Shown: positions 277 through 25,227 of the stretch, piece by piece
Numbering within the stretch: position 1 is the stretch's first letter
How the letters are laid out: the number at the start of each line of letters is the position of its first letter
IMG/VR virus record: IMGVR_UViG_3300024517_000102
Coordinates: 1-25,567 of that record
DNA from: a virus
DNA length: 25,567 nt
Reading direction: 5' to 3' (one strand)
Translations under genes and position numbers: made by a program
Notes under the pieces: model-generated
What the model was told of the DNA's origin: nothing
The model's input: the letters and a program-made list of their open reading frames with translations, nothing else
Database searches by the model: none

Positions 277-471
277 ATGATGAAAAAAAGAATTAGAAAA
301 AAAAGAAGTGGATTAGAACCTATACGTGACAAGTCCCTTAGAATGGGATTAGGATCACCGCATATTCCTATATCAATTAGGAAAAAAACGCTTGGAAGGA
401 AAAAAAGATCAGGGGGAGGAAGAGTTATGACAGGGACAGAAGTAGTGCAAATTCTTGGTGGCTATAAATAA
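277..471 (+). CDS. Small basic protein with MGLG and GGG-R-V motifs (64 aa)
   Basis: The start is ATG 277 (followed by a second ATG), ten bases after a strong AAGGAGG at 261-267; an upstream in-frame start would run through the terminator hairpin. The protein is very rich in Lys/Arg (N-terminus MMKKRIRKKRSG). It contains RMGLGSPH in the middle and KKRSGGGRVMTG near the end, and finishes LGGYK. It resembles no enzyme I know. The internal MGLG and the GGG-R-V plus G-Y-K ending relate it to the other small basic genes at 1579, 1962, 2558 and 4139. A role binding DNA or packing inside the head is conceivable, but that is inference. Confidence 0.65.
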   Translation: MMKKRIRKKRSGLEPIRDKSLRMGLGSPHIPISIRKKTLGRKKRSGGGRVMTGTEVVQILGGYK

Positions 472-489
472 ATTCTATAAGGAGAAACT

Positions 490-855
490 ATGACTACAAA
501 TATTAAAGTCGCACAAAATGTAAGTAGTGATGGAGCGATTATAACAGGCTTTCGTTATGTTGAGACTAATACCAGTTTAGGAGATGAAGGAACAGGTTCT
601 AGTCCTACTCCATCAACAACCAGAGTTCTTGCCATGCATACTTATTCAACTCTTGCAGGTGAAATTGTTATTTCAGGATCGAAGCAGATTACAAATAGGA
701 CAGCTAAAGGAACAGCTATTCGATATCGTGTAGCAGCTTTAGATTCTAACGATCAATATATAGGAGATATGGGAGTAGGTGTTCACGGAATTGTAAGTGT
801 TGCGACATCTGGAACAGGAGCAATGCTTCCTACGATTACATTGTATTTGGGCTAG
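490..855 (+). CDS. Hypothetical beta-rich protein next to the capsid gene (121 aa)
   Basis: It starts at ATG 490 after AAGGAG (479-484) and stops one base before the adaptor start at 857. The sequence is rich in Ser, Thr, Gly and Val, with alternating beta-type stretches (AGEIVISGSKQITNRTAKG, AIRYRVAALDSNDQYIGDM) and no Cys. There are no catalytic motifs, signal peptide or membrane segment. Its size, composition and place between the capsid and the first adaptor would suit a capsid decoration, stabilisation or head-fibre protein, but I do not recognise the family and this is inferred from position only. Confidence 0.7.
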   Translation: MTTNIKVAQNVSSDGAIITGFRYVETNTSLGDEGTGSSPTPSTTRVLAMHTYSTLAGEIVISGSKQITNRTAKGTAIRYRVAALDSNDQYIGDMGVGVHGIVSVATSGTGAMLPTITLYLG

Positions 856-856
856 T

Positions 857-1537
857 ATGGTTGCCTACTCATACCTTAAAACAGATGTTATTCAAACTTC
901 TGAGAATGAGTCTACCGAATTTGCCAGTGCAATATCTTTCTTTGTGGATCGTACAGAACTAAGACTTCTGAAGGATCTGGATGATGTTGGACTAGACGAG
1001 TTTGGTAGTATAACTCTTAGTGTCAGTAATCCTGTTGTTAGTTTAAATGACAGAGTTCATATTATTCGTAATGTGAATTACACTACCAGTGTGTCTAGTC
1101 TTAAGACAAGCTTACTTCAAAGAACATATGAGTATGCCATAGATTTCTGGCCTTATGCCAGTGCTTCTGTAGGCACTCCCAGATACTATTCCAGAAAAAC
1201 TAATTCATCTATTTATATAGTACCAACTCCTGCATCTACTCTGACAGGAGAAATACAGACAGTTTCCAGACCGTTGCCTCTGTCTTCCGCTACAGGAACA
1301 AGTGTAACTACTGAGAATTATTTTAGTAATTATTGTTATGATGCTCTCTTTGCAGGATGTATGGTGGAAGCTACCATGTTTATGAAAGATTGGAACACAC
1401 TTCCGGTCTGGCAGACACAGTATCAAACAGCTATAGCAGCATTACGTAATCAGGCTAGAAGGACCAGACAGGATGATATGGAAGTTGCGGCTTCTCCTGC
1501 TGGCGGTCCCGATACTATAACACAAGGAGCAAGCTAA
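857..1537 (+). CDS. Head-tail adaptor, SU10-adaptor-like (226 aa)
   Basis: ATG 857 lies two bases after the upstream stop. The protein starts with a short helix-type segment (FASAISFFVDRTELRLLKDLD), followed by beta stretches typical of baseplate- and portal-ring adaptors (LSVSNPVVSLNDRVHIIRNV, YEYAIDFWPY). It then has a C-terminal helical region (YCYDALFAGCMVEATMFMKD). This order of N-terminal helix, beta middle and helical C-terminus containing a short Trp-rich stretch is what I associate with the phage adaptor family of SU10-like short-tailed phages. It would form a dodecameric ring beneath the portal. It is separated from the second adaptor-type gene (5267) by the basic-protein cassette, which is unusual spacing. 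Family assignment is moderate. Confidence 0.6.
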   Translation: MVAYSYLKTDVIQTSENESTEFASAISFFVDRTELRLLKDLDDVGLDEFGSITLSVSNPVVSLNDRVHIIRNVNYTTSVSSLKTSLLQRTYEYAIDFWPYASASVGTPRYYSRKTNSSIYIVPTPASTLTGEIQTVSRPLPLSSATGTSVTTENYFSNYCYDALFAGCMVEATMFMKDWNTLPVWQTQYQTAIAALRNQARRTRQDDMEVAASPAGGPDTITQGAS

Positions 1538-1563
1538 TGGGATTTAAACTTAAAAAAAAATGA
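1537..1563 (+). other. Eight-codon mini-ORF, possible coupling leader
   Basis: The ATG at 1537 overlaps the adaptor's TAA and is preceded by AAGGAG (1523-1528). It encodes only MGFKLKKK before TGA at 1561-1563, just ahead of the ribosome binding site of the next gene. It contains an A9 tract (1552-1560). It could be a leader that keeps ribosomes on the message, or the remnant of a gene that once began MG.. like its neighbours. Nothing shows that it is translated. Confidence 0.25.
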
Positions 1564-1564
1564 G

Positions 1565-1590
1565 AAGGAGTAGTTAAAATGGGATTAGGA
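1565..1590 (+). repeat. Duplicated translation-start module, copy 1
   Basis: The 26 bases covering the Shine-Dalgarno (AAGGAG), spacer and first four codons (MGLG) match 2332-2357 at 25 of 26 positions; only the base after AAGGAG differs. The proteins downstream are otherwise unrelated. A 12-base core (ATGGGATTAGGA) also occurs at 343-354. Confidence 0.8.
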
Positions 1591-1962
1591 AATATATTAG
1601 GACCGGGAGGACCGGGATCAATGAAAGAGATTACTGCTAAAGATATTAGGGCTGCTAATCGAGTATTAAAAAAAGGACGTAAATTTAACAAACCAAAAAA
1701 AGGAACTACCTCCTATGCTACTAGAAAACAATTTGTAGCTCCACCAAAAGGAAAAAAGAAACTAAAACAAGAAGAAAAAGATTTAAATTTAGTTTATGAT
1801 TATGGCACTGAAGCACAAAAAGCCAAGTCTTTTGGAAGAGGAAAGAGAAAAACTGCTCCTCTTCGTAATGTTAGAAAAGGAGGAGAGTTTCCTAAAAAAC
1901 ATGGCGGTAAGATTACCTATAAGATGACAGGTGGTCAGGTTGTAGCTGCTGGATATGAGTAA
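1579..1962 (+). CDS. Small basic protein with KKHGGKI and GGQV tag, ends AGYE (127 aa)
   Basis: It begins at ATG 1579, 8 bases after AAGGAG. The N-terminus is MGLGNILGPGGPGSM; the body is strongly Lys/Arg-rich with no enzyme motif. The C-terminal 20 or so residues carry two linked motifs, KKHGGKI (codons from 1894) and TGGQVVAAGYE at the very end. Closely similar endings occur in the next gene (KKHGGQVMAEGYD) and in the 522-residue protein (KKGGTVYRKTGGQV). I read this as a shared C-terminal tag on otherwise different proteins. The function is unknown; charge and setting make DNA binding or loading into the head reasonable guesses. TAATG overlap couples it to the next gene. Confidence 0.7.
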   Translation: MGLGNILGPGGPGSMKEITAKDIRAANRVLKKGRKFNKPKKGTTSYATRKQFVAPPKGKKKLKQEEKDLNLVYDYGTEAQKAKSFGRGKRKTAPLRNVRKGGEFPKKHGGKITYKMTGGQVVAAGYE

Positions 1963-2108
1963 TGTCTAAAAGTCCATTAAGAAAATATACGGATGAATTA
2001 AAAAATCCGAAGGCTACTCAAAAAAGTATTCAGCCGTTTCTAAAAGATTATCTTAAATCAATAAGAAAAAAACATGGTGGGCAAGTTATGGCAGAAGGAT
2101 ATGATTGA
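1962..2108 (+). CDS. Very small tagged basic protein, ends KKHGGQVMAEGYD (48 aa)
   Basis: Its ATG overlaps the previous stop (TAATG) and its own TGA overlaps the next ATG (TGATG), so translation is probably coupled on both sides. The sequence is basic (MSKSPLRKYTDELKNPKA...) with a helix-like middle (QPFLKDYLKSIRK). About a quarter of the protein is the tag KKHGGQVMAEGYD, nearly matching the end of the preceding protein. Since little else is present, the tag is probably the functional part or directs the peptide to a site. No known family. Confidence 0.65.
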   Translation: MSKSPLRKYTDELKNPKATQKSIQPFLKDYLKSIRKKHGGQVMAEGYD

Positions 2109-2344
2109 TGGTTAACAGATCAAGCATACAGCAACAGATTATGAAACCGGGATTGAGAAGAGGTGGTAAGATTAAGAAGAAACCTAAGTTAGGTACAGGT
2201 AAAAGATTTAAACAGCTTTCATCTAAATTAAAAAAGAAGGGAGCTAAAGATCCTAAAGCTCTTGCTGCTTGGATAGGCCGTAAGAAATATGGACCCAAAA
2301 AATTTGCTAAATTATCGGCAAAAGGTAGAAAAAGGAGAAGTTAA
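2108..2344 (+). CDS. Small basic protein with GWIGRKKYG-type C-terminus (78 aa)
   Basis: The start is ATG 2108, sharing one base with the upstream TGA; the in-frame TTG at 2105 is a weaker choice. The protein is about one third Lys/Arg. It contains RRGGKIKKKPKLGTGKRF near residue 18 (the GGK-I motif again, here internal), then KKKGAKDPKALAAWIGRKKYG and a K/R-rich tail ending RRS. The segment around AAWIGRKKYG is familiar from small proteins of marine phages, where Lys-rich ends are common; I cannot give it a function. DNA or RNA binding is inferred from charge only. Confidence 0.65.
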   Translation: MVNRSSIQQQIMKPGLRRGGKIKKKPKLGTGKRFKQLSSKLKKKGAKDPKALAAWIGRKKYGPKKFAKLSAKGRKRRS

Positions 2345-2357
2345 AATGGGATTAGGA
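2332..2357 (+). repeat. Duplicated translation-start module, copy 2
   Basis: The same ribosome-binding-site-plus-MGLG module as 1565-1590, with one mismatch. Here it overlaps the last codons of the upstream gene, so the duplicated bases are coding in a second frame as well. Confidence 0.8.
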
Positions 2358-2555
2358 CCACATACATTATTGCAACGTCCTCCAAAGCTGAATGAAATAC
2401 TTGGTAAACCTACAGGACAAGGATTTGGTGCTGCTCGTAAAGGACCATCAGTGGTAGGCAAGCCACAGGATGTCGTTGTAGATGAAGATTATGAACAGGG
2501 AAAAGCTTTTAAAATAGAAACATCTGATAAAGACAGTACTTACGGAGAATCTTAA
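2346..2555 (+). CDS. Small hypothetical protein beginning MGLG (69 aa)
   Basis: ATG 2346 follows AAGGAG (2332-2337); it begins one base after the upstream stop. The start MGLGPHTLLQ shares the gene-start module of the 1579 gene and resembles the inside of the 277 protein (RMGLGSPHIPI). Unlike its neighbours it is not strongly basic: the second half is acidic (DVVVDEDYEQGKAFKIETSDKD) and lacks the GG tag. No family recognised. It may be an unrelated gene that acquired the same start by duplication. Confidence 0.65.
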   Translation: MGLGPHTLLQRPPKLNEILGKPTGQGFGAARKGPSVVGKPQDVVVDEDYEQGKAFKIETSDKDSTYGES

Positions 2556-2557
2556 TC

Positions 2558-4126
2558 ATGGCTCCTCGATTTAAACCTAAACCTAAACCTAAAGTTAAAG
2601 TTAAAAGTACAGGAGTTACCAAACAGCTAAAGGCTGCTGCTAAAAGAGCAGGTTTTGTAAAAGCTAATGGAACAGCGGATGTAGCTGCTTACAGGAAACA
2701 TAAAGCAAAGATAGCAGCACTAGGAGGACTTCCTACAGGTCCATCCTCTAAAACAGATAAAACAGTAGCTGCTCGTCTAAATATTTCAGCAGCAGAGTTA
2801 GATAAACAACGGAAAGAAGCATTAACTAAAAGTTTAAATGCCGAAGCTAAAGCAAAAAATATATCTGTAGAAGAAGTTAAGAAACTTAGAGTAGCAAGAA
2901 AAATAAAAAGAGGCAAGACAGCTAAAAAAAGAGCATATACAGCAAATAAGGAAAATGTTAAAAAACTTACGGATATAGGAGTTGATGAATCATTAGCAAA
3001 ACAAGTGCTAGATCCTGACTTTACAAACTTACCTACAAAAAAACAAGTAGAATTAAAAACAAAAGTAGCAGAACAAAAAGCATCTTTTAAAAGGAAACCA
3101 ACAATTGTTTCTACTGCTGATAAACCTTTACATGTTGCAAGAGAGGCTCCTGAAGGACAAGATCCAGTTAGATTAAAGCAAATAAAAGAAACACGTAAAT
3201 TTAAAGATCAAAAACGAAAATTAGTAAGTGCTAGGAATAAAGTAAGGAGAGTTGAAACAAAACTTAAAAAATTAATTAGTAGTAAAAAGAATGTTAAAGC
3301 TAATCAAAATAAATTAAAAAATACACAGGAAGAACTTCAAGATCTTTCAGAAGCTATTTCAAATCAAACTCCTATTCCTGAAAGAAAATTGAGAGGATTG
3401 AATATAGCTTTAGATATAGTCTTAGAAGCTCCTGAACCAGTTAAAGTAGATGAAACTATACAAACTAAAGTTCCTCCTTCTATAAAAAGTGCTACAACTG
3501 TTACATCAAAAGTATGGCCTCTTAATAAAAAGATAATGAAAAAAGCTAAACAAAGTGATGCAGTTAAAAAAGATATAATAAGAACCCTTACTGATAAAAA
3601 AATTTCCTCAAGATTGGCTACTAAAGTAGCTAATGCTCAATCATTAACTAAGGCAGAGATAAATAAATTAAAAAAGATTGGAGTAAATTATACGTATGGT
3701 GAACCCGGATCAGCCCGTGCGCCTACTCCTCTAAAAAAATTAACAGCAAGAGAAAAAGATTTACAGAAAATTACTGGAGATCCTACTCCAGAAAAATGGC
3801 CTTCTTTAGAAAAGCTACAAACATTATTAGGACATGCCAAAGTAGGGCCAGTTAAAAGAGGTACTGGTAAAACTGGTGGAGGAAAAGGTAAAATACATAT
3901 CGGTAATTTAACTTCTACACAAGTTCAAGAATTAATAAGAGGAAAAGCTTTAACTAGAGAACAGGCAGATGAAATAGAAAAAATAATAAAAGATCCTAAA
4001 TCAGAATTATCAGTAAGAAAAAAAGGTGGTACTGTATATCGTAAAACAGGCGGTCAAGTTTCTAGAGGAACAGGGGCTGCTCTTCGTGGATTTGGTAAAG
4101 CTACTTATTCACATAAACTTTATTAA
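2558..4126 (+). CDS. Large Lys-rich protein with C-terminal KKGG/GGQV tag (522 aa)
   Basis: It starts at ATG 2558, two bases after the previous stop, with only weak ribosome-binding sequence (overlap of a TTAATC). The N-terminus is a KPKPKPKVKVK string, followed by long Lys/Arg/Ala helices of likely coiled-coil character, for example VRRVETKLKKLISSKKNV around residues 227-245. There is no Cys or membrane segment. The C-terminus has KKGGTVYRKTGGQVSRGTG (codons from 4019) and ends GFGKATYSHKLY. Similar endings occur in marine-phage proteins, as far as I recall. The strong positive charge and large size would suit a DNA-condensing, head-internal protein. That function is inference; nothing in it resembles a known nucleoid protein. 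Confidence 0.75.
   Translation: MAPRFKPKPKPKVKVKSTGVTKQLKAAAKRAGFVKANGTADVAAYRKHKAKIAALGGLPTGPSSKTDKTVAARLNISAAELDKQRKEALTKSLNAEAKAKNISVEEVKKLRVARKIKRGKTAKKRAYTANKENVKKLTDIGVDESLAKQVLDPDFTNLPTKKQVELKTKVAEQKASFKRKPTIVSTADKPLHVAREAPEGQDPVRLKQIKETRKFKDQKRKLVSARNKVRRVETKLKKLISSKKNVKANQNKLKNTQEELQDLSEAISNQTPIPERKLRGLNIALDIVLEAPEPVKVDETIQTKVPPSIKSATTVTSKVWPLNKKIMKKAKQSDAVKKDIIRTLTDKKISSRLATKVANAQSLTKAEINKLKKIGVNYTYGEPGSARAPTPLKKLTAREKDLQKITGDPTPEKWPSLEKLQTLLGHAKVGPVKRGTGKTGGGKGKIHIGNLTSTQVQELIRGKALTREQADEIEKIIKDPKSELSVRKKGGTVYRKTGGQVSRGTGAALRGFGKATYSHKLY
2576..2605 (+). repeat. Hexamer repeats encoding KPKPKVKVK
   Basis: Three tandem CCTAAA units (2576-2593) run into two GTTAAA units (2594-2605). 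The array lies inside the 522-residue gene's first codons and produces the alternating Lys-Pro/Lys-Val string, so it is explained by protein composition. It could vary in copy number by slippage. Confidence 0.7.
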
Positions 4127-4138
4127 AGGGAGTTAAAA

Positions 4139-4429
4139 ATGGCAGGTATGACAAGAGTAGGACTCTCACCAGCAGAAATGGCAAGGGCTGGTACGATGTC
4201 AGAAGAAGACCGTCTTCGTTACATGAAGAAGGGCGGTAAAGTCGGTAAGAAAAAACAAGGTTATAAAGCCCGGAAAGATGAATCGATTGCTATGAGGGTT
4301 AAGAAGAAACGTACCAAGAAACAACTCAAGGAAAGTCGAGATGAGTCTTACGGTAAGCCCGGTAAAGGTAAAGGTAAAGGAAAGATAAATCGTTCTGGGG
4401 CTGCTTTAGTTGCTTCCTCCTATGATTAA
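4139..4429 (+). CDS. Small basic protein with KKGGKV motif, ends ASSYD (96 aa)
   Basis: ATG 4139 has AAAGGGA (4125-4131) upstream. The N-terminus is MAGMTRVGLSPAEMARAGTM; the next part, DRLRYMKKGGKVGKKKQGY (motif at 4226-4243), carries the same K-K-G-G-K-V core as the other cassette proteins. A Lys-rich body follows with repeated GKGKGKGK, and the ending is SGAALVASSYD, like the AGYE/EGYD ends of its neighbours. No catalytic features. It overlaps the next gene by eight bases. Probable role as for the other tagged basic proteins, unknown. Confidence 0.7.
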   Translation: MAGMTRVGLSPAEMARAGTMSEEDRLRYMKKGGKVGKKKQGYKARKDESIAMRVKKKRTKKQLKESRDESYGKPGKGKGKGKINRSGAALVASSYD

Positions 4430-4613
4430 TAAAGAACTTTACGAGAAGTCTGTTAGAGAAGGTCTTAATGATTATTCATTAATAGATTATAGTATTTCTA
4501 AACCAAAAGAAGAAGATTACAAGACTTTTAATGAATATTTTCAAGATCTTTCTAATTATATATGTTTAAAATTTAGGTATACTTATGGCAGTAAAGCAGA
4601 AACGAAAACCTAG
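4422..4613 (+). CDS. Small hypothetical acidic/mixed protein (63 aa)
   Basis: ATG 4422 overlaps the end of the upstream gene, and the end overlaps the next gene by 29 bases. The protein (MINKELYEKSVREGLNDY...) has Tyr-rich helical segments with no Cys motif except one Cys near the end (NYICLKFRY). Its composition is unlike the basic cassette. The overlaps and the absence of a clear ribosome binding site make it less certain than its neighbours, but there is no other explanation for the open frame. Function unknown. Confidence 0.5.
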   Translation: MINKELYEKSVREGLNDYSLIDYSISKPKEEDYKTFNEYFQDLSNYICLKFRYTYGSKAETKT

Positions 4614-4884
4614 TAATATGAAGGGCATGACTATTAAGGGAGGACATAAGCGTCCTACTAAGTCAGGTGCAGGTCTTACCAAGAAGGGAGTAGCTAAATA
4701 CCGTAGGCAAAATCCCGGCTCTAAATTAAAGACTGCTGTAACTGAAAGTAAACCTACAGGTAAGAGAGCAGCAAGACGTAAAAGTTATTGTGCTAGGTCT
4801 GCTGGTCAAATGAAGAAGTTTCCAAAGGCTGCTAAGAATCCAAAGAGTAGACTTAGACAAGCTAGGAAAAGATGGAAGTGTTAA
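4585..4884 (+). CDS. DUF6321-like basic phage protein (99 aa)
   Basis: ATG 4585 has AGGTATACTT upstream and starts inside the previous gene. The middle reads GAGLTKKGVAKYRRQNPGSK, LKTAVTESKPTGKRAARRKS and CARSAGQMKKFPK..KNPKSRL, ending KARKRWKC-like (RQARKRWKC). The order LT.KGVAKYRR.NPGSKLKTAVT, then RRKS(F/Y)CARS, then (A)..NPKSRL..A.(K/R)RW.C is one I recognise from a small family found in many cyanophage and other marine phages (DUF6321), whose function is unknown. Both Cys residues sit in the conserved positions. It is very basic. It closes the basic-protein cassette. Confidence 0.75.
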   Translation: MAVKQKRKPSNMKGMTIKGGHKRPTKSGAGLTKKGVAKYRRQNPGSKLKTAVTESKPTGKRAARRKSYCARSAGQMKKFPKAAKNPKSRLRQARKRWKC

Positions 4885-5102: not shown

Positions 5103-5255
5103 GTGGAAACAATAAGTCATGTTTGCATACATTGCGAACACTCCTGTCATTGCGATATGATGTGTTCTTTTCATGAAGATAGTAAAATGTGTAAATGTGA
5201 TGACTGTAATTGCAGACCCTCTGATTGGGGCGCACCTACAGAGTATATGGAATAG
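5103..5255 (+). CDS. Metallothionein-like Cys/His-rich protein (50 aa, GTG start)
   Basis: This short frame lies between the DUF6356-like gene and the tail adaptor. GTG 5103 is the only start that keeps all cysteines: the upstream in-frame stop is at 5079-5081 and the next ATGs are at 5157 and 5160. AGGGA (5096-5100) is a close Shine-Dalgarno. Nine Cys (8, 11, 15, 17, 21, 30, 32, 35, 37) and five His (6, 10, 13, 16, 24) fall in the first 37 residues. The cluster CKCDDCNC (30-37) is C-x-C-x-x-C-x-C, the spacing of the N-terminal cluster in the bacterial metallothionein SmtA. Expected role: binding Zn, Cu or other soft metals in the cytoplasm. Alternatives are a zinc-knuckle regulator or a structural zinc protein. 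The motif is directly visible; the function is inference. Confidence 0.65.
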   Translation: METISHVCIHCEHSCHCDMMCSFHEDSKMCKCDDCNCRPSDWGAPTEYME

Positions 5256-5266
5256 GAAGGAATAGA

Positions 5267-5944
5267 ATGGCAGTATCAGGTACATATAATTTTAATCTGG
5301 ATATAGATCAGGTTATTCAAGAAGCTACTGAAATGATTGGTGGTGAGGATACGCTTGGACATACCCCAGAATCTGCTAGACGTTCTATTAATCTGATGTT
5401 AAGGGATTGGCAGAATAGGGGCATTCTTCTTTGGACGACAAGTACTACGGCTGTTACAGTAGCTGCTTCCGTAGCAGACTATTCTTTAAGTAGCTCTACA
5501 ATTAATGTTATGGAAGCTACAACCCGTAGAGATAATACGGATATTAAAATTACTAGAATTACTCCTGAAGAATATCTACTTATCCCGGCAAAAACTCAGA
5601 CAGGAAGAGCTTCCCAGTATAGTATCAGGAGAGGAAGAGATAATCCTGTTATGTCTATATGGCCTATACCAGAAAATTCTACTGATATTCTTAGGATGGA
5701 AATTGTAAGTGAAGTTGAGGATGTGGATAAGTCTGCTATACAGAATGCAGATACTCCTAAAAGATTTCTACCTGCACTTACCTGTGGTCTGTCTTACTAC
5801 TTATCTATGAAAAGACCACTTGTACCAGATACTAAAATTGCAATGTTAAAAGCAAACTATGAGGAGATATTAGGAAGGGCAATGGAAGAAGACAGGGAAA
5901 GAGCTAGTATCTATCTTCTGCCCAGACTGACATTTTATAATTAG
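5267..5944 (+). CDS. Tail adaptor, P22 gp4-like (225 aa)
   Basis: The start is ATG 5267, with AGGAAGG (5255-5261) upstream. The N-terminal helical part (DIDQVIQEATEMIGGEDTLGH, then ESARRSINLMLRDWQNRGI) has the pattern of P22 gp4-like tail accessory factors: a helical bundle with a LN.ML.DW...G motif. The middle is beta-type (TTAVTVAASVADYSL), and the C-terminal half is helical (LPALTCGLSYYLSMKRPL, then EEILGRAMEEDRE). It would attach below the portal and join the nozzle to the head, completing the neck of a short tail. It is followed at two bases by the Cys-motif gene and further on by the nozzle. Confident of the class, less so of the exact family. Confidence 0.7.
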   Translation: MAVSGTYNFNLDIDQVIQEATEMIGGEDTLGHTPESARRSINLMLRDWQNRGILLWTTSTTAVTVAASVADYSLSSSTINVMEATTRRDNTDIKITRITPEEYLLIPAKTQTGRASQYSIRRGRDNPVMSIWPIPENSTDILRMEIVSEVEDVDKSAIQNADTPKRFLPALTCGLSYYLSMKRPLVPDTKIAMLKANYEEILGRAMEEDRERASIYLLPRLTFYN

Positions 5945-13981: not shown

Positions 13982-16291
13982 ATGGGTATATTATCTTCAT
14001 TATTTGGTATAGGAGGAAGTAAGCCTAGTACCTCCACTGTTGTTCAACAACAGAATATACCTCCAGAACTAGCTCCTTTTATAAAAGAAATACTGGGAGA
14101 AGCACAGACTTTATATAAGGCAGACCTAGAAAGAGGATATGATCCTTATACAGGTTTAACAACTGCTCCTTTTACTCCTGAACAAGAAGCTGCTCAAGAA
14201 GGAATTTCTGGATTAGTAGGAACTACTGCCCCATTTTTAGCAGAAGCTTTTGATATTTATAAAGAAGGAGCAGAGAAGTTTACTCCTGAAGTAGCCCAAG
14301 AATATATGTCTCCCTATCAAAGAGCCGTTACCGACATTGAGAAGAGAGAAGCTCAAATACAATTTGAACGTACTGCTCGCCCTGCCTTTGAAAAGAGGGC
14401 TGTAGATGCTGGTGGTATGAGTGGTCTGGGTACAAGAGCAGGAGTAGAAGCAGCGGAAATGCAAAGAGGACAGTCACAACTTCTGGCTGATATAGAAGCC
14501 AAGGGATTACAAAGTGCTTTCCAGAATGCCCAAGCACAGTTTGCACAGCAGAAAGCCAGAGAACAATCAATGGCTGGTAATATAGGTAGGACAGGACCAG
14601 CCCTATTCCAAGCAGGTTTGGCAGAGCGTGGGGCGCAGATGGGAGTAGGAGAACAGAAGAGAGAGGCTGCACAATCAGAACTGGATGAAGCATACTTTAA
14701 ATTCCTTGAGGAAAGAGGATTCCCACAACAAACCTTGGCTGACTATTCACAGACTGTTTATGGCAGTCCTCTTAGTAAACAACCTTTTGGAACAACAAGA
14801 ACAGAAACTGGAACTCCATTTGTTTCTAGTCCTGCTTCTCAGTTAATGGGATTAGGTCTGGGAGGTTTGAATATGTATGGTATGGCTGGTGGATGGGGTG
14901 CTGGTGGTCCTTCAATGCAAGGTCTTTATTCAGGAGGAAGGAATCCTTTGGCTAAAGAAGGAGGTCAAGTAATTCCTAGAGAAGAGGGAGGTCAGGTAAA
15001 TCCTAGAGGATTGTCTGGATTACCTGTAGTTCGTAGAAATGTTGGAAGTGGAATAGGTGGTCAGAAGTCATGGCATACACCACCAATTCAGAGAGACACA
15101 CAAAATACACCAACAAACTATACAGATATAATAAAAAGTTTATTAGGAGAATTAACAGGTGGGGGAGATTATAGTAATCCTAGTGCATTAAGAAATACAA
15201 TAGGAGCAGATATAAATCAGTTAGATTATTTTAATAAAGATAAGCGTTCAATACCTTATAAACTAAGAGATACGGAAATAAAAAATGCGGCAAAGCTAGC
15301 TAAAGAACGTAGAGAAAATATTAGAGATACTTCATCAGCAGCAACTCAAGAAGCTAGGAGTGATTATGTCACTAAAAGAAAAGAAGAAGCTGATAAAGTT
15401 AATATAGGAGGAGATGTCGGTACATTTTTAAAAGATCTAGCAGCAGGAAAACATAAGGAGGGTATGACACCTATAGAAATACTTGCTGGTACTTTATCAG
15501 CAGGTGCAGAATCTGCTGGAAGACAGATGGAAGAAGGTCGTAAAGAAAAAACTGAATTAGATAAAGAAATATATGCTGAAGAAAAGTCAGATCGTGTTAG
15601 AGCATCTGAAAATCTTTTGAAAGATTCGGAGTTAGAACATGCTGCTTCAGTTGACTTAATTAAAAGGGAGTTTGAGTTAGAAGAGATGATTGCAGAACTT
15701 CCCTTAAAAAAACAAGAGTACGTTAACAACAAAATTAATCAACAACTAAAGACAGAGAATTTAGGATTGGCAAAAATTAATACTGCGGCAACTTTACTAA
15801 AAGCATTAGGAGATATAAATACAGCTAAGGGAGGAGATAAAGGAGGCAAATCTTATGTAGCGGCTCAAAGAATAATGAATAATGGAGTTGCCAGAAAATA
15901 TGAAGTTCTTTTAAGTTATGATACACAGGGAAATATTACAGGAATATCTAAAAATAATCAAAGGTTGGATAATAATGATCCTGACTTTATAAGAGTAAAC
16001 AGAGAACTGTATGAAAAGAATAAACTTTTCTTGGATATGTTAAGTGTACAAGGAGTTAAAATAACTCAACAGGATATTGCAAAAGCTCAGAATGCAGCAA
16101 TGCAGTTAGCTGTATTCGATCCTCCCAGTAAAACTCTTGAAGCTCTCAGAGATAAAGCTCTTCCTTTAAAAAAATCAAATCCTGCAAAATTTAAATTCGC
16201 AATAGGAAAATTTGCTAACAACTTCTATAATAATGATGTGAGGGCTGCTGAAGCATTTCTTAAGTATTGGGTCAGTGAGAATCCGCAATAA
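13982..16291 (+). CDS. Internal virion / DNA ejection protein (769 aa)
   Basis: ATG 13982 follows AAAGGG (13970-13975). The start MGILSSLFGIGGSKPS, then PPELAPFIKEILGEAQTLY, followed by RTARPAFEKRAVDAGGMSGLG and long Ala/Gln helices, is typical of podoviral ejection proteins (a Gly-rich hydrophobic head and F..RA..AG..G..TR...EA pattern). Residues 324-343 hold a tandem EGGQVxPR motif. The C-terminal half is helical, charged, and has no membrane span. It would leave the capsid with the DNA to help build a channel across the envelope. It is paired with the 1965-residue protein. Confidence 0.65.
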   Translation: MGILSSLFGIGGSKPSTSTVVQQQNIPPELAPFIKEILGEAQTLYKADLERGYDPYTGLTTAPFTPEQEAAQEGISGLVGTTAPFLAEAFDIYKEGAEKFTPEVAQEYMSPYQRAVTDIEKREAQIQFERTARPAFEKRAVDAGGMSGLGTRAGVEAAEMQRGQSQLLADIEAKGLQSAFQNAQAQFAQQKAREQSMAGNIGRTGPALFQAGLAERGAQMGVGEQKREAAQSELDEAYFKFLEERGFPQQTLADYSQTVYGSPLSKQPFGTTRTETGTPFVSSPASQLMGLGLGGLNMYGMAGGWGAGGPSMQGLYSGGRNPLAKEGGQVIPREEGGQVNPRGLSGLPVVRRNVGSGIGGQKSWHTPPIQRDTQNTPTNYTDIIKSLLGELTGGGDYSNPSALRNTIGADINQLDYFNKDKRSIPYKLRDTEIKNAAKLAKERRENIRDTSSAATQEARSDYVTKRKEEADKVNIGGDVGTFLKDLAAGKHKEGMTPIEILAGTLSAGAESAGRQMEEGRKEKTELDKEIYAEEKSDRVRASENLLKDSELEHAASVDLIKREFELEEMIAELPLKKQEYVNNKINQQLKTENLGLAKINTAATLLKALGDINTAKGGDKGGKSYVAAQRIMNNGVARKYEVLLSYDTQGNITGISKNNQRLDNNDPDFIRVNRELYEKNKLFLDMLSVQGVKITQQDIAKAQNAAMQLAVFDPPSKTLEALRDKALPLKKSNPAKFKFAIGKFANNFYNNDVRAAEAFLKYWVSENPQ
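14957..15010 (+). repeat. Tandem EGGQVxPR peptide repeat
   Basis: Codons 14957-14983 encode EGGQVIPRE and 14984-15010 encode EGGQVNPRG, two nine-codon copies. This is the same GGQV core as in the C-termini of the small basic proteins at 1579, 1962 and 2558. Confidence 0.75.
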
Positions 16292-16296
16292 ATATC

Positions 16297-19200
16297 ATGC
16301 CAATAGATGACTCTGATATTTTTGAAGGATTTGAAACACAAACTGTAGTTCCTGTTTCTCCAATCGTTGACCACTCTGATATTTTTAAAGGATTTGAAGA
16401 GACATCTGAGCCAGTACCTAAGATTACTAAACCTATATCTGAAGTTACTGAAGATTACTCTGATATTTTTGAAGGATTTGAAGAGGCATCTGAGTCAGTA
16501 CCTGAAGTTGAAACTGAAGTTAAAACTAAAGTTACTGAAGATTACTCTGATATTTTTGAAGGTTTTGAAGAGATAGCTGTACCTGAATCTGTAGTTAAAA
16601 CTAAAGTTGAAACTGAACTTCCTACTAAAGCAAAAACATTTGTAGAGCAAATCACAGATCTGTTTACAAAAACTTCTGATGAAAAAAAGTCATTATATAA
16701 GTTTCCTCATGCAGAACATATGGCTAAGGCTTTAGGTGTGTACGAAGAGCCTGATGTATCTACAGCCGAACCCGAACTTGTAGGTTTTGATCCTTCTGGT
16801 ATGGATCGTTATGAAAAGTTAACTGTTAAACCTCGTTGGCAGACTAAAAAAAGAACTAAACAATCCCCATATGAAAGAACTATGGCTGAGTTAGCTATTG
16901 ATCCTGAATGGAATAAGTGGGGAAAAATTATCTATGACTACGAACAGAAAAATAAAGGTCCACTCTCTGCTCTTGAACTCCCGGCTGATATAGTTATAGA
17001 TAAAGAAACTTTTGGAGAGACTGCTCTTGTAGGATCTCCTACTGATATTAAAATGGGTACGAAGATGAATTACGGAGAGTGGCTTCAGGAAAGATTTTCT
17101 AAAGGATTCTTTGATCTTACTAGTCTAGGTATGACATTATCAAAAGCTAGTGAATTTCCTGATGAGATTAAAGATACATGGCGAAAAGCTATAAATATGG
17201 AAATGAGAACTGATTGGGATAAGGATTCTTTTAAGAGAGGTGCCTATCATACCATTTCAGATCCAACTATGCTTGCTCCTGCCGTTGCAATTAAAGTATT
17301 TCAATTACTTGCACGAACATTAGGAGGAAAGGCTGCTAGTCAAGCAGGTAAACATCTATTATTAGGACAGCTTAAAAAAAGTAAGATTAAAGAAGGTATT
17401 ATTGGTATTGCCAGTAAGTATTCTCCAGTAACTTCTGTTCAAAAGAAACTTATGTCTGAGTTTGATATTCCTAGAAAAGTAGCTCTTAAAGCAGCCAAGG
17501 GAAATGACGCAGCACTAAAAGAAATTTCAAATATCGTAAGTAGAGAAAGTGTAACTAAATTTTTAACTGATGCTCGTATCTTATCTAATAAATGGAGAGC
17601 CGCTATTGCTCCTCTTGGTGGAGCGTCATGGTCTACAACAGCAGATCTGCTTACACAATCTCTTCATATGCAATTACAAATGGCATCACCTAAATTAAAG
17701 GCAGAGTATGAGCAACAACTAGCTTTAGGACAGCCTGTTCCCAAAGCTATGCGTAAACACATGGAAGCTTTTATAAAATCTCCTGAAGAAATAGTAATGA
17801 ATAGGGATGTCATAGTTCGTATTGTAGATGACATGCTAAAATCTAAAGGGCCAGAAGCTCAAGGTTTTAGAACAGAAGCTAAGAAATCTGCTACAGAATT
17901 TTTTGCTAAGGAACACGGAAGAAAGCCTACACAAAAAGAGATAGATAAAATTTTTAAAGAGTCTATAATGGATGAATATATGAGCGATGCTTTGAAAGTA
18001 GCAGAAAAAGAAGGTCTATTTAATTTAGAAAGTCCTGCTAATTTCATGGAATGGTTTAAACAAATAGATTGGGAGCGTACTGGTGAAGCAACCTTAGTAG
18101 GATTAGGAGTTGGTGGAATTTTAGGTACTGGTGCTTATGTACTGGGAAAAGGATTTAATAGGTGGGCAGCAAGTAGAAGAGCAAAGAAAGATGAAATGGC
18201 TCTGTCAATAAAACACGCTAATATTTCAGATGAAATTGAAAAGTTAAAAAATAAGCCTGATACTAAACCAATTGTAACCAGAGTTATTGGAGAGATAGCA
18301 GATGAAGGACCAAGTTATTCTAATGAATGGACACCCCTCCCTCTAGCACCTACCTCTGATAAACTTATTATAAGTGGTTATATTCCTAAAGGATCTACTA
18401 AAGAATATATATTTAATGAAGCTGTTAAAATTAATAACGCATTAACTACTAAAGGTATTTTTAATTTAGGTCTTGAAGAAGGAACTACTAAAAGACAGAT
18501 AGCGGAAATAGTAAATAAATTTGAGTTGGCTAATATAAAATTAACTCCAATAAGTAAGACTTCTTTTGAAGGTAGAAAAATAAAAGAGAGAGAGTTATCA
18601 GATACTGGCAGACCTATAGAAGAAGGAGATCTACAGATTGAAACTACTACTGAAGTTACACCTTCTGAGAAAGTAGTTACTGAAGTTGAAGTTTCTCCAG
18701 AAGGAGGAGCTATGGAAGGCCCGATACCAAAGTTTCTAACTAATGAGGGAGATGCTCCTCCTCCACCTCCTCCAAAAGTAACTCCTCCCGGTGAAGATCC
18801 ACCTCCTGTTGGTGGTCAACCTCTTATACCACAAAGACATAAAGTAAAAGAACGACTAGGTAATGTTAATACTTTTGGTGCTAGGATGTTGACTACTACA
18901 GGATCATTACCAAAACCAATAGCTGAAGCAACTAAAGCAAGAATGAGAAGAGTAAGAGGAATAAGACTTGAGGTAAGAAAAGCTCTTAGAGATATTAAAA
19001 AAGCAAAAAGACTTACTCAGACAACTAATAAAGATTTTGATTTTGCTATTAATGAAGGGGTAATGGAGATAAAAGATACTGAAGGTAATGTACTAAGAAG
19101 AATACATCCTGAAATGCAAGAAAGTTTAAATAAACTATACGGTATAATACAGAGGAATGAAGATACTATGAATGATCTTCTAGGTTTAAAAGGAGATCAG

Positions 19201-22194: not shown

Positions 22195-22556
22195 TGCTGG
22201 AACTAGGGCCAAGAGAACTTCTGACATTCGGTATAGTACTGGCTGGTGTAGCGACTACATGGGGTGTACTTAAAGCTACCATACGTTCTATTATAAAACA
22301 ACTGGATGGTACGAAAGAAAACTTAACAGAAATATTTACCCGGATAGATAAGGTAGAAGCAAGACAAGCTGTTGCCCTGTCTTCTATTGATGTCATGGCA
22401 AAGGACATACTCTCTCCCCAGATCCTGAAGGAAAGAAGTGAGAGAGATGGGGCTATTGAAATGAGACTAGCAGCTATTGAAAAAGATCTGGACAGGTTCT
22501 ATCGAATGCATAATGGAACACATCCTCCAATAGAAAAAGAAAAGGAAAAAAAATAA
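22194..22556 (+). CDS. Membrane-anchored coiled-coil protein beside endolysin (120 aa)
   Basis: ATG 22194 overlaps the giant's TAA. One hydrophobic helix at residues 10-30 (LTFGIVLAGVATTWGVLKA) is followed by a long charged helical region with heptad-like spacing (LTEIFTRIDKVEARQAVALS, MRLAAIEKDLDRFYRM) and a Lys-rich tail (EKEKEKK). The arrangement resembles small phage lysis-cassette proteins such as i-spanins or holin-associated proteins. The positive residues just after the helix (K, R, K) would favour the coiled-coil on the cytoplasmic side, so an i-spanin call is not safe. The endolysin follows with ATG overlap. Lysis-associated by place; exact role open. Confidence 0.6.
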   Translation: MLELGPRELLTFGIVLAGVATTWGVLKATIRSIIKQLDGTKENLTEIFTRIDKVEARQAVALSSIDVMAKDILSPQILKERSERDGAIEMRLAAIEKDLDRFYRMHNGTHPPIEKEKEKK

Positions 22557-22933
22557 TGTGGGATTATTTTAGTACTGAAGAACTTAAATGTAAAGGTACA
22601 GATGAATGTTTGATGGATACAGAGTTTATGAAAAAGCTGGAAGCTTTACGTAAAGAATTTAATCAGCCTATGATTATAACTTCAGGTTACAGACATGAGT
22701 CTTATAATCAGGTTATAGGGGGAGCCAAGAACTCTCCTCATCTATATGGAAAGGCAGTGGATGTCTTGGTCAGTGGGAAGGCTGCATATAGATTAATGAA
22801 ACTAGCTATTCAACACGGCTTCACAGGCATAGGAGTGTCTCAGAGAGGAGCGCATGAAGGCAGGTTTCTGCACATAGACACAATGGATAGTAGTAATACA
22901 CATCCCCGGCCTTGGATATGGAGTTATAAGTAA
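22556..22933 (+). CDS. Endolysin, peptidase M15-type (125 aa)
   Basis: ATG 22556 overlaps the previous TAA. The protein has the M15 fold markers in order: ITSGYRHESYNQVIGGA (residues 41-57), SPHLYGKAVDV (60-70) with the zinc ligands H62 and D69, and FLHID (104-108) with H106. Two Cys near the start (C12, C18) match the ELKCKGT.ECLMD stretch seen in the family. It would cut peptide cross-links of peptidoglycan (an L,D- or D,D-peptidase), releasing progeny. It has no signal peptide, so it needs a holin to reach its substrate. Its length is normal for single-domain M15 endolysins. Confidence 0.85.
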   Translation: MWDYFSTEELKCKGTDECLMDTEFMKKLEALRKEFNQPMIITSGYRHESYNQVIGGAKNSPHLYGKAVDVLVSGKAAYRLMKLAIQHGFTGIGVSQRGAHEGRFLHIDTMDSSNTHPRPWIWSYK

Positions 22934-24139: not shown

Positions 24140-24174
24140 CAGCCTCACACAGAAGAAGTAGCTTCTTCAGGCTG
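24140..24174. other. Interrupted hairpin at the convergent gene junction
   Basis: CAGCCT (24140-24145) pairs with AGGCTG (24169-24174), and GAAGAAG (24152-24158) with CTTCTTC (24162-24168), with a three-base loop and a six-base one-sided bulge. It overlaps the end of the TerS gene and lies between the two convergent operons. There is no T-run on either side, so it is not a standard intrinsic terminator. Confidence 0.35.
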
Positions 24175-24657
24175 GGGTAGGTCCAGAGCATCTGGAGAAG
24201 GCTGCTCAGTGACGCTCTCTGTCCCTTCATTTTCCTCCTCCTCCTCATAAATAGTAAAGTCACACTTATCTAGAAGGTCATATACCTTTTCTTCACCTAA
24301 AACATTCAAACATCCTATGATTGCATTCTCTAAACTCTCTTCATCCATACTTATATTAAGATCAGAGTTAGCTCCTCTTACTCTGGATAAAAGTTCGAGT
24401 GCTTTGATAGCACTATTTGTATGTCCATTCGATTTGGCATATTCATATTGAGCTTCTATCTCTTCTATGACATTAACATTAGTTTCAAGTTCCTGTTCGA
24501 GGTTGTGTATTCTTTCTACCACCTCATCCATTTGAAGAAGTCTATAGCCTTGGTTGTTTGCTGATCGTGCTGCATATCCTGCTGCCTTGGCTGCTTCAGT
24601 AGCATTCCTGTGAAGGACATAAGCTTGAGCAAACTTTTCCTGTTTATCATTTAACAT
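24145..24657 (-). CDS. terS: Small terminase subunit, Terminase_2-like (170 aa)
   Basis: I chose ATG at 24657 because the LNDKQEKFAQAYV start matches the family; an in-frame ATG six codons earlier (24675) is possible. The start overlaps the upstream gene by 11 bases. LNDKQEKFAQAYVLHRNATEA, then AAGYAARSANNQGYRLLQ, is the N-terminal helix-turn-helix of Terminase_2-type small subunits. Coiled region follows (VERIHNLEQELETNVN), then an acidic, Ser/Pro tail. It would recognise the packaging start on phage DNA and load the large subunit (TerL), which is not beside it. It is the last gene of its operon. Confidence 0.8.
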   Translation of the reverse strand: MLNDKQEKFAQAYVLHRNATEAAKAAGYAARSANNQGYRLLQMDEVVERIHNLEQELETNVNVIEEIEAQYEYAKSNGHTNSAIKALELLSRVRGANSDLNISMDEESLENAIIGCLNVLGEEKVYDLLDKCDFTIYEEEEENEGTESVTEQPSPDALDLPQPEEATSSV

Positions 24658-24901
24658 AGTAAGACACCAATCCATTAATTAATAAGACAAGAGAGACAGC
24701 ATTGATAACTAGCAAAGCTCTGTCATTCCAGATGATAGCCACAATAAACCATCCAAACATTCCAATGGCATGAACCATCAGGTTATAAGGATAAATGTTA
24801 TTACTGGTCAGGATAACTCCTCCTACCAGTACAACCGAAGCTATCCATTTAATATACCAATCAAGAGTATGAGTTGGTGTTTGTTTATTTAATTTAGTCA
24901 T
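24647..24901 (-). CDS. DUF6552-like small membrane protein (84 aa)
   Basis: ATG at 24901 overlaps the Fe-S carrier's TGA (ATGA); the longer frame upstream has no better start. After MTKLNKQTPTHTLDWYIKW there are three hydrophobic helices: IASVVLVGGVILTS, LMVHAIGMFGWFIVAIIW and ALLVINAVSLVLLINGLVS. The DWY.KW entry plus W(N/R)(D/E).AL...N...S..L pattern is one I recognise from a small membrane family of cyanophages and other marine phages (DUF6552). The function is unknown. It is likely in the inner membrane. Confidence 0.7.
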   Translation of the reverse strand: MTKLNKQTPTHTLDWYIKWIASVVLVGGVILTSNNIYPYNLMVHAIGMFGWFIVAIIWNDRALLVINAVSLVLLINGLVSYYVK

Positions 24902-25227
24902 ACCTGAAAACTCTCTCCGCATCCGCACATGGATTCTACATTAGGGTTATCAATCATAAGACGCTGACCAAAGATATCCTTCTTATAGTCTACCGTCATT
25001 CCTGCTACATAAACACTGGAGATATTATCAATGACAAGCTTACCTGTATCCAGATCTATAATGAAGTCATCGATAATGTCATCGAACTCTTCCTCAGTGA
25101 CAAGCTGCCAATCATAGGTAAAGCCAGAGCATCCTCCGCTGTTAACTGCTAGTCGAATAGCAGCTACCTTATTCTCTGCAACAACAGAAGATAGATGTAT
25201 GTCTGCGTTATCAGTCAGCTTTATCAT
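24898..25227 (-). CDS. A-type iron-sulfur carrier, IscA/HesB family (109 aa)
   Basis: ATG at 25227. Three conserved cysteines are visible: C33 in SGGCSGFTYDW, and C101 and C103 in MCGCGESF at the end (C-x67-C-G-C), the ligand set of IscA, SufA and HesB proteins. The central beta sandwich is clear (LVIDNISSVYVAGMTVDYKK). Length is typical. It would receive an Fe-S cluster and pass it to host or phage apoproteins, acting in the cytoplasm. A-type carriers are known as accessory metabolic genes in marine phage genomes. It is cotranscribed with a holin and TerS, overlapping the 38-residue gene by 17 bases. Specificity (IscA, SufA or ErpA) cannot be told. Confidence 0.85.
   Translation of the reverse strand: MIKLTDNADIHLSSVVAENKVAAIRLAVNSGGCSGFTYDWQLVTEEEFDDIIDDFIIDLDTGKLVIDNISSVYVAGMTVDYKKDIFGQRLMIDNPNVESMCGCGESFQV

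Follow-up and report, generated by a model that had tools for sequence, protein, structure and literature searches.

We analyzed a 25,567-nucleotide stretch of viral DNA (IMG/VR record IMGVR_UViG_3300024517_000102; hereafter the window), in which two SU10-type adaptor paralogues flank a cassette of small genes (Table 1). The upstream adaptor is the conserved gene directly 5' of the cassette. Below, cassette proteins are named by the first position of their genes.

Table 1. Features of the cassette and its neighboring genes, with positions in the window
Feature	Position	Strand	Evidence
Orphan basic 64-aa protein, end EVVQILGGYK, only loosely tag-1-like	277..471	+	Profile score 2.1
SU10-type head-tail adaptor, 226 aa	857..1537	+	Pfam SU10_adaptor 4.5e-12; PHROG 2941 virion structural 4.6e-10
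Basic protein, 127 aa, tag 1 long form, C-terminal end PKKHGGKITYKMTGGQVVAAGYE	1579..1962	+	Translation
Tag 1 long form, last 22 residues of 1579 protein	1894..1959	+	AlphaFold2 beta-hairpin (predicted)
48-aa protein, end KKHGGQVMAEGYD, tag 1 in divergent short form (tag at ~2070-2105)	1962..2108	+	Homologues
Untagged conserved small basic cassette protein, family M-[IV]-NR-S-S-x-x-QQ	2108..2344	+	Recurrence
Untagged conserved small cassette protein, 69 aa, GPHTLLxxPxxLxEILGxPTGQGxGAARKGPxV	2346..2555	+	Recurrence
Basic helical protein, 522 aa, carries tag 2	2558..4126	+	Translation; helical body at residues ~20-180 (AlphaFold2)
Tag 2, RGTGAALRGFGKATYSHKLY, cationic, amphipathic if helical	4064..4123	+	Left disordered by AlphaFold2
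96-aa tagged protein	4139..4429	+	Matches C-terminal end of 520-536-aa sister-contig proteins
Tag 1 short form, RSGAALVASSYD, end of 4139 protein	4391..4426	+	Profile
Second SU10-type adaptor paralogue, far cassette boundary	5267..5944	+	Pfam SU10_adaptor 1.2e-8

Relatives of the 1579 protein resembled it either over the whole length or in the tail only. The closer homologue of the 1962 protein in L008 terminates in SGGQVKAEGYD, and remoter homologues terminate in GGQVIEGIYKNG or similar. The two untagged families, at 2108 and 2346, were present in 24 and 29, respectively, of the 32 cassettes with at least 3.5 kb of downstream sequence. A fold search with the 2558 protein found nothing at E<=0.001, the best E value being 4.0; other phages have SLT or LysM proteins carrying tag 2 in this position. 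Residues 4-96 of the 4139 protein are 71% identical to the counterpart in L005 and 70% to that in L108; the L005 protein has a LysM domain (2.2e-11), and the window's product corresponds only to its C-terminal end. Except for the window's own copy (L001), the 277 protein had no homologue among the 8,572 ORFs in the loci retrieved. Elsewhere, the window encodes an ejection-type protein (13982-16291, PHROG 4287) and an M15 peptidase (22556-22933, 2e-21) that is probably the endolysin. A DUF6321 sequence at 4585-4884 was considered as a third tag and rejected, as it is a domain of ~70 aa found alone or C-terminally in longer phage proteins.

The initial annotation held that five basic cassette proteins bear one common tag, which recurs in the ejection protein. 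The peptides that it quoted are present: GGGRV and a GGYK end in 277, KKHGGKI and TGGQV with a GYE end in 1579, KKHGGQV with a GYD end in 1962, KKGGTV and TGGQV in 2558, KKGGKV with an SYD end in 4139, and EGGQVIPR/EGGQVNPR at 14957-15010 in the ejection protein. Shuffling each of the 29 window proteins internally gives an expectation of 1.8 for GG[KQTR][VI]; the motif occurred 10 times, with eight occurrences in the cassette and two in the ejection protein. One of these eight, RRGGKI in the 2105/2108 gene, was absent from the original list. When scored with a 12-column C-terminal tag profile, without hold-out since L001 sat in the training set, the 1579, 4139, and 1962 proteins reached 32.8, 27.7, and 14.6, compared to 2.1 for 277, -1.0 for 2558, and -0.9 for the ejection protein. 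The single tag thus stands for 1579, 1962, and 4139 and fails for 2558, which carries a second tag, and for the orphan 277; the cassette peptides are two distinct C-terminal tags, not one set. The ejection-protein GGQV was likewise rejected as the same signal. All six homologous ORFs have an internal Gly-Gly at a similar place (residues ~316-336; GGKV, GGRV, GGPV, GGQV, or GGRL), indicating a separate feature and not a tag.

Beyond the window, tag 1 recurs as a C-terminal tag across a whole clade, in a long form, KKxGGKITY[KR]MxGGQVVDxxYD-COOH, and a short form, SGxxLVAxxYD-COOH. A DNA pattern for GGKITYxMxGG matched 70 loci in IMG/VR and none in GTDB genomes. In 49 of 49 distinct long-form proteins, the tag lay 19-21 residues before the stop behind bodies that were mostly unrelated, and the V...Y[DE] end was also conserved, though it lies outside the search pattern. 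An adaptor gene was found no more than 2.5 kb upstream in all 60 evaluable loci, the other 10 having too little upstream sequence to be counted. The tblastn searches of the phage collection with tags 1 and 2 returned nothing, which is weak negative evidence because the BLAST low-complexity filter may hide such queries.

Further counts used loci fetched by adaptor only, with greedy nonoverlapping ORFs standing for annotated genes and duplicates by the last 30 residues removed from the upstream and downstream sets. The tag was carried by 0 of 248 distinct upstream proteins and 59 of 280 downstream proteins, compared to a mean of 3.8 and a maximum of 11 for shuffled tails. One tagged gene (G001, 51002-51244) was missed by the greedy filter and read directly instead. 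Among first genes after the adaptor, 36 of 49 distinct proteins were tagged (shuffle mean, 1.0); 20 of 71 first-gene slots lacked a tagged score, some owing to regex limits. Tag 1 was present in 31 of the 32 cassettes of at least 3.5 kb, and 11 contained two or more copies. Among 441 proteins of six near-complete contigs, the top seven profile matches (20.2-40.8 bits; next best, 14.8) were all exactly C-terminal and all in the cassette; the test contigs and then also identical 12-mers were excluded from training, with whole lineages kept. Among the phages studied, tag 1 is restricted to this locus.

These proteins are rich in lysine and glycine, and short Gly-Gly peptides are common in such sequences, so the tag might have been convergent composition without function. 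This reading is refuted for tag 1 and retains next to no weight, given the ceiling reached by shuffled tails, the untagged upstream genes, and the strictly C-terminal placement of the long form. The recurrence in relatives far beyond chance for such ends, which the initial annotation had proposed as a test, is borne out.

The conserved end could instead reflect a nucleic acid or translation effect, either an overlap with the next gene start (TATGA) or a recombination site, and the TATG that includes the Tyr codon does open a downstream frame of 30 aa or more in 37 of 79 distinct tag DNAs. However, 42 of the 79 lack such an ATG overlap, and 14 (18%; background, 22.5%) use TAC, which removes the ATG and keeps the Tyr. 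Moreover, codon positions 1 and 2 are nearly invariant in 31 distinct tag DNAs but third positions vary, indicating selection on the peptide. We consider this explanation largely refuted and very improbable. Eight of the 14 TAC tag DNAs are still open framed there, and another start codon could serve.

AlphaFold2 modeled the 1579 protein with a mean pLDDT of only 61.7, with the tail blocks averaging 79 and 72. Tag 1 is predicted to form a beta-hairpin (KITYRM-TGGQ-VVDxxYD) or the last strand alone (SGxxLVAxxYD). Tag 2, RGxGxALRGFGKA..., forms the end of the 2558 protein and is unrelated to tag 1. Its DNA pattern was found in at least 120 contigs, and on the ORFs read it lay mostly no more than 11 aa from the stop of basic proteins. 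Since it also occurs at the N terminus of a family of 58-62 aa and within unrelated proteins, tag 2 is less specific than tag 1, and it was rejected as a clade marker. It is a cationic segment (RGxGKALRGFGKA) that is potentially amphipathic, with a helical moment for RGVGKALRGFGKAM of 0.80 versus 0.32 for shuffled sequences.

Cargo is replaced beneath a constant tag. In an alignment of 126 distinct tagged proteins, mean column identity was 6%, with conservation in the tail only. In three cargo-swapped pairs, adaptor and tag identities were 99% and 79%, 100% and 95%, and 99% and 89%, and BLASTP between the cargo of each pair detected no homology. Tag subtype changed 19 times on the adaptor tree (shuffled mean, 29.5), and changes this frequent imply that any receptor must tolerate wide variation. 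The cassette is absent from the cultured relative HTVC027P, as read across its capsid-to-adaptor block, indicating that it is dispensable for virions of this type. Pfam detected LysM in 9, SLT (transglycosylase) in 2, and dockerin in 14 of the 126 proteins, so that peptidoglycan-related domains were on only 11; the window's own tagged proteins have no LysM or SLT Pfam domain. LysM cargo was divided between tag 1-like ends (five) and tag 2 (four), suggesting that the tags may be interchangeable, and both SLT proteins carried tag 2. Bodies of tag 1 proteins were strongly basic, with a mean net charge of +14.5 per 100 aa (n=102). The earlier idea of a common tag on unlike cargo is upheld in that the tag is only C-terminal, is locked to the head-tail block, and is borne in part by cargo of types that virions are known to contain.

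Fast cargo turnover behind a constant tag is typical of arms-race genes, and the tagged proteins could act in the host against defence or other host functions, the tag then serving for binding or stability and having nothing to do with the particle. We regard this as decidedly improbable, as Pfam, PHROGs, and NCBIfam gave no defence- or host-directed domain with a convincing score, and the location in the head-neck block together with LysM and SLT cargo points to the particle or the envelope. Unpackaged late lysis or envelope helpers, with tag 2 as a membrane-active helix and tag 1 as a fold-capping or dimerising hairpin, would account for the high helical moment of tag 2 and its presence on peptidoglycan-related proteins. 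Against this stand the separate M15 peptidase, the absence of a tag 2 helix in the AlphaFold2 prediction, and the occurrence of LysM under both tags even though tag 1 is not of a membrane-helix kind, which make such a role improbable. The tags might also dock proteins on the virion outside or neck, at the adaptor or nozzle ring, as tail-associated lysins or accessory parts. The cassette's place between two adaptor paralogues and the LysM and SLT domains fit this arrangement, but the charge of the bodies fits DNA contact better; we judge exterior docking unlikely, though of appreciable probability. Tagged proteins with LysM or SLT domains could themselves belong to the tail exterior or assist in lysis.

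The best explanation, which we hold at about even confidence, is that the tag is an exchangeable C-terminal label that would load proteins into the virion. The cassette between the adaptor genes would serve as the dock at which exchangeable cargo is loaded for the virion, with cargo genes expressed in a late structural operon and each product ending in a short address peptide. A conserved part of the head or neck would bind this peptide, with the capsid protein, the scaffold, the portal-adaptor ring, and either of the two conserved untagged cassette proteins as candidates, and any tag-bearing protein would thereby be built into the particle. Lysine-rich cargo may pack with or beside the DNA and, at infection, would be released together with ejection proteins; LysM and lytic transglycosylase cargo may assist passage through the cell wall, and the rest may be active inside the host. 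We infer that the tagged proteins lie in the virion, that a receptor reads the tag, and that cargo is delivered, with loading into the procapsid the best inference. A wider proposal, tentative and held at somewhat below even confidence, is that a large, uncultured, probably short-tailed clade has its own C-terminal two-tag postcode, of origin independent of the T4 capsid-targeting sequence (CTS), that would load hypervariable, lysine-rich cargo into the virion for delivery to the host. Cargo kinds under that proposal are cell wall binders, transglycosylase, Ca-binding modules, and many unassigned proteins, with interchangeable tags.

The T4 leader served to list the T-even internal proteins. 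If the tag loads cargo, it would similarly permit a sequence-only listing of injected proteins in uncultured phages, and proteins of choice could be brought into phage particles by means of a short C-terminal extension. It would also follow that address tags at protein termini evolved for virion cargo on more than one occasion. The tag makes a concrete question testable, namely, which head or neck component reads it.

Among known systems, the tags are best likened to the N-terminal T4 CTS and the encapsulin cargo-loading peptide, although they appear to belong to neither. The T4 CTS is removed by the gp21-type prohead protease. Among the L012 head-region proteins scanned, none gave a hit to a separate prohead protease family of the T4 type; a 'major head and protease' profile aligns through its C-terminal part with the L012 capsid protein. 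T4-type internal proteins are unrelated and hypervariable, and their common feature is only a short conserved terminal CTS (PMC3012670). The system described here similarly has several unrelated, hypervariable proteins per phage that share only a short terminal signal. In contrast to the N-terminal T4 signal, this one is C-terminal and predicted to be a beta-hairpin or strand, and it occurs in phages with SU10-type adaptors, in which the virion presence of tagged proteins is putative.

The encapsulin cargo-loading peptide, too, first stood out as a C-terminal sequence conserved on differing cargo (PMC7355545), and both systems have a short C-terminal peptide common to differing cargo and encoded beside an HK97-fold shell gene. 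Two genes upstream of the adaptor, L012 has a capsid gene (Phage_capsid_4, 4.3e-11) of putative HK97 fold. Unlike in encapsulins, the peptide sequence is another one, the particle is a phage with DNA inside, the tag genes come after the adaptor instead of the shell gene, and shell binding is putative. The short-tailed phage SU10 has a transglycosylase among its head proteins (PMC9509320). The case of its gp20-24 ejection proteins resembles the present system in SU10-type adaptors and, at the domain level, in a transglycosylase (SLT). It differs in that the window's ejection-type protein lies elsewhere, with the tagged genes forming an extra cassette that is basic and hypervariable.

The window is a linear viral contig of 25,567 bp. 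The peptides that the initial annotation had listed for the basic proteins of the cassette were each found at their positions in the window. The motif GG[KQTR][VI] was over-represented, occurring 10 times among the 29 window proteins compared to 1.8 expected from shuffles. Eight of the ten occurrences were in the cassette and two in the probable ejection protein, where an internal Gly-Gly element follows the conserved N-terminal region; all six homologous ejection-protein ORFs of relatives carried such an element at a similar site (about residues 316-336).

With the protein encoded from position 1579 as query, we detected 35 relatives in IMG/VR. Most of these aligned across only the last 22-26 residues (73-86% identity): the C-terminal tail, termed tag 1, moves independently of the protein body. 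The proposal of a common tag on differing cargo held among relatives. The DNA pattern for GGKITYxMxGG, characteristic of the long form of the tag, identified 70 loci, with chance matches across the collection estimated by hand at well below one. When every ORF of the loci collected by then was considered, the motif was present in 100 ORFs representing 49 distinct proteins, in all 49 of which it lay 19-21 residues from the stop. Tag 1 proteins ended in V...Y[DE], now and then followed by one or two residues, and since this ending was absent from the search pattern, its conservation is independent evidence. AlphaFold2, given this protein together with 44 tagged sequences, modeled the body at low confidence and predicted that the C-terminus forms a hairpin, with strands at residues 112-117 and 120-126 (mean pLDDT of the two blocks, 79 and 72). 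The query protein here was again the one encoded from position 1579.

We also analyzed an unbiased sample of 80 loci retrieved through the adaptor alone, 71 of which had at least 350 bp downstream. Relatives' genes were ORF-based calls, and subtypes were scored with handmade regular expressions. The first gene after the adaptor was scored as tagged in 51 of the 71 loci, or in 36 of 49 distinct first-gene C-termini (shuffle mean, 1.0; maximum, 5). Over all distinct C-termini of these loci, tags were found on 0/248 upstream and 59/280 downstream (shuffle mean, 3.8; maximum, 11). The downstream sequence reached 3.5 kb or more in 32 loci; tag 1 was present in 31 of these, with two or more in 11, and tag 2, described below, was present in 14. 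In six near-complete contigs (441 proteins; 94,438 positions), the top seven tag-profile matches were exact C-termini of cassette genes, the lowest scoring 20.2 bits versus 14.8 for the next match. The single contig without a match (G001) had lost its tagged gene to the ORF filter, and the gene was then read directly.

Features of the window and of one relative (L012)
Feature	Position	Context	Match or observation
SU10-type adaptor	857-1537	upstream of cassette	Pfam, 4.5e-12
DUF6321 protein	4585-4884		4e-13
Small cysteine-rich protein	5103-5255		CxCDDCNCRPSDWG close to its end
Second SU10-type adaptor	5267-5944	after cassette	1.2e-8
Gly-Gly element	14957-15010	ejection protein
Start of 1965-aa protein	16297-16650		four SDIF(E/K)GFE copies
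Terminase small subunit and Fe-S cluster biosynthesis gene	24145-25227	minus strand, contig end	Terminase_2, 1.3e-14; Fe-S_biosyn, 4.8e-16
GroES-like co-chaperonin	L012:4999-5424	amid head genes	PHROG 3188, 2.4e-14

In relatives, the portal gene was followed by small genes, a probable scaffold gene, and the genes for the capsid protein and a protein of 113-121 aa; next came the adaptor, then the cassette, and after it the second adaptor and the fibre genes. An adaptor lay no more than 2.5 kb upstream of tag 1 in 60/60 loci with sufficient upstream sequence to judge, from the 70 tag loci in all. Tag-like tails were absent from the capsid-to-adaptor block of the cultured relative HTVC027P and from the stretches of HTVC023P and DSL-LC04 covering just part of that block. 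The phage records searched included no cultured clade member (best adaptor identities, 24-33%); the nearest named relatives indicate that the host is likely an aquatic bacterium.

PHROG profiles of several lengths matched the DUF6321 protein via their C-terminal ends, indicating that this domain caps longer phage proteins too; most of its 303 matching phage records were cyanophages. Small Cys-rich ORFs with a KTDWG end, resembling the small window protein, occurred near the cassette end in three relatives (L084, L103, and L160). The 1965-aa protein had no match in Pfam or PHROG, and the Fe-S_biosyn gene is a possible auxiliary metabolic gene.

Homologous first-gene cargo was detected by BLASTP in only 47% of 234 locus pairs with adaptors at least 85% identical. 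The window and L109 shared 99% adaptor and 79% tag identity, L104 and L034 shared 100% and 95%, and L167 and L170 shared 99% and 89%, all three pairs without BLASTP cargo homology. The region preceding the tag averaged 9% identity in ungapped comparison. Over all pairs, mean tag identity by adaptor-identity class was only 27-44%, due to differing subtypes and unaligned extra C-terminal residues. Tag subtype clustered on the adaptor tree yet switched frequently (19 changes versus a shuffled mean of 29.5). The 48 distinct long-form proteins had 31 distinct 39-nt tag DNAs, with codon positions 1 and 2 near-invariant save two or three variable residues and position 3 variable at all residues except Met. 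This codon pattern indicates that selection acts on the tag 1 peptide. The last tag codons overlapped the start of the next gene in 37/79 distinct tag DNAs, but TAC, which abolishes the overlapping ATG, occurred in 14/79 (near the 22.5% background), and 42/79 in total had no ATG overlap. The tail is therefore not accounted for by a translation artefact.

The initial annotation grouped the protein encoded from position 2558 with the others. Its listed peptides were present, but its C-terminus, RGTGAALRGFGKATYSHKLY, was a distinct ending, tag 2. Tag 2 was frequent in the same slot of relatives, on 42/485 distinct downstream proteins versus 0/379 upstream in a locus set that includes loci retrieved by tag; its pattern has matches elsewhere too. 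As a helix, the peptide would be strongly amphipathic by its moment, but AlphaFold2 modeled it as disordered. A separate family of 58-62-aa phage proteins (L201, L205, L220, and others) has a tag-2-like N-terminal RGVGAAIKGFG.

Among 126 distinct tagged proteins, a non-redundant choice from 276, Pfam domains included dockerin (14), LysM (9), and SLT (2). All nine LysM proteins, found with a small profile, exceeded the Pfam cut-off on rescan; five had tag-1-like ends (L005, L109, L115, and the divergent L102 and L046) and four had tag 2 (L080, L100, L103, and L160). The 96-aa protein encoded from position 4139 matched the C-terminal ends of two longer sister-contig proteins, 520 and 536 aa in length (71% and 70% identity), and its counterpart in L005 contains a LysM domain. 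The SLT domain of L065 begins ahead of the first ATG, contains an IESGG motif, and scored 9.4e-20 when scanned from there; 4/86 distinct tag-2 proteins were SLT-like by motif. In 13 of 14 regular-expression matches, a dockerin-like loop immediately preceded tag 1, at 39-45 residues from the C-terminus; in the remaining match it lay farther upstream.

One constant peptide on many bodies, at one locus in the head-neck block and with basic, sometimes cell-wall-acting cargo, points to a putative address label, with a predicted location in the virion. Our searches of open-licence PMC papers brought up no prior description of tag 1 or tag 2 that we recognised. SU10 and this clade share the adaptor family, and the SU10 head is described as containing a transglycosylase ejection protein (PMC9509320). 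As described, the T4 leader works as proposed for the tags here but is N-terminal (PMC12373910, PMC3012670), and the encapsulin peptide works alike and is C-terminal (PMC7355545); the tag system has the full defining features of neither.
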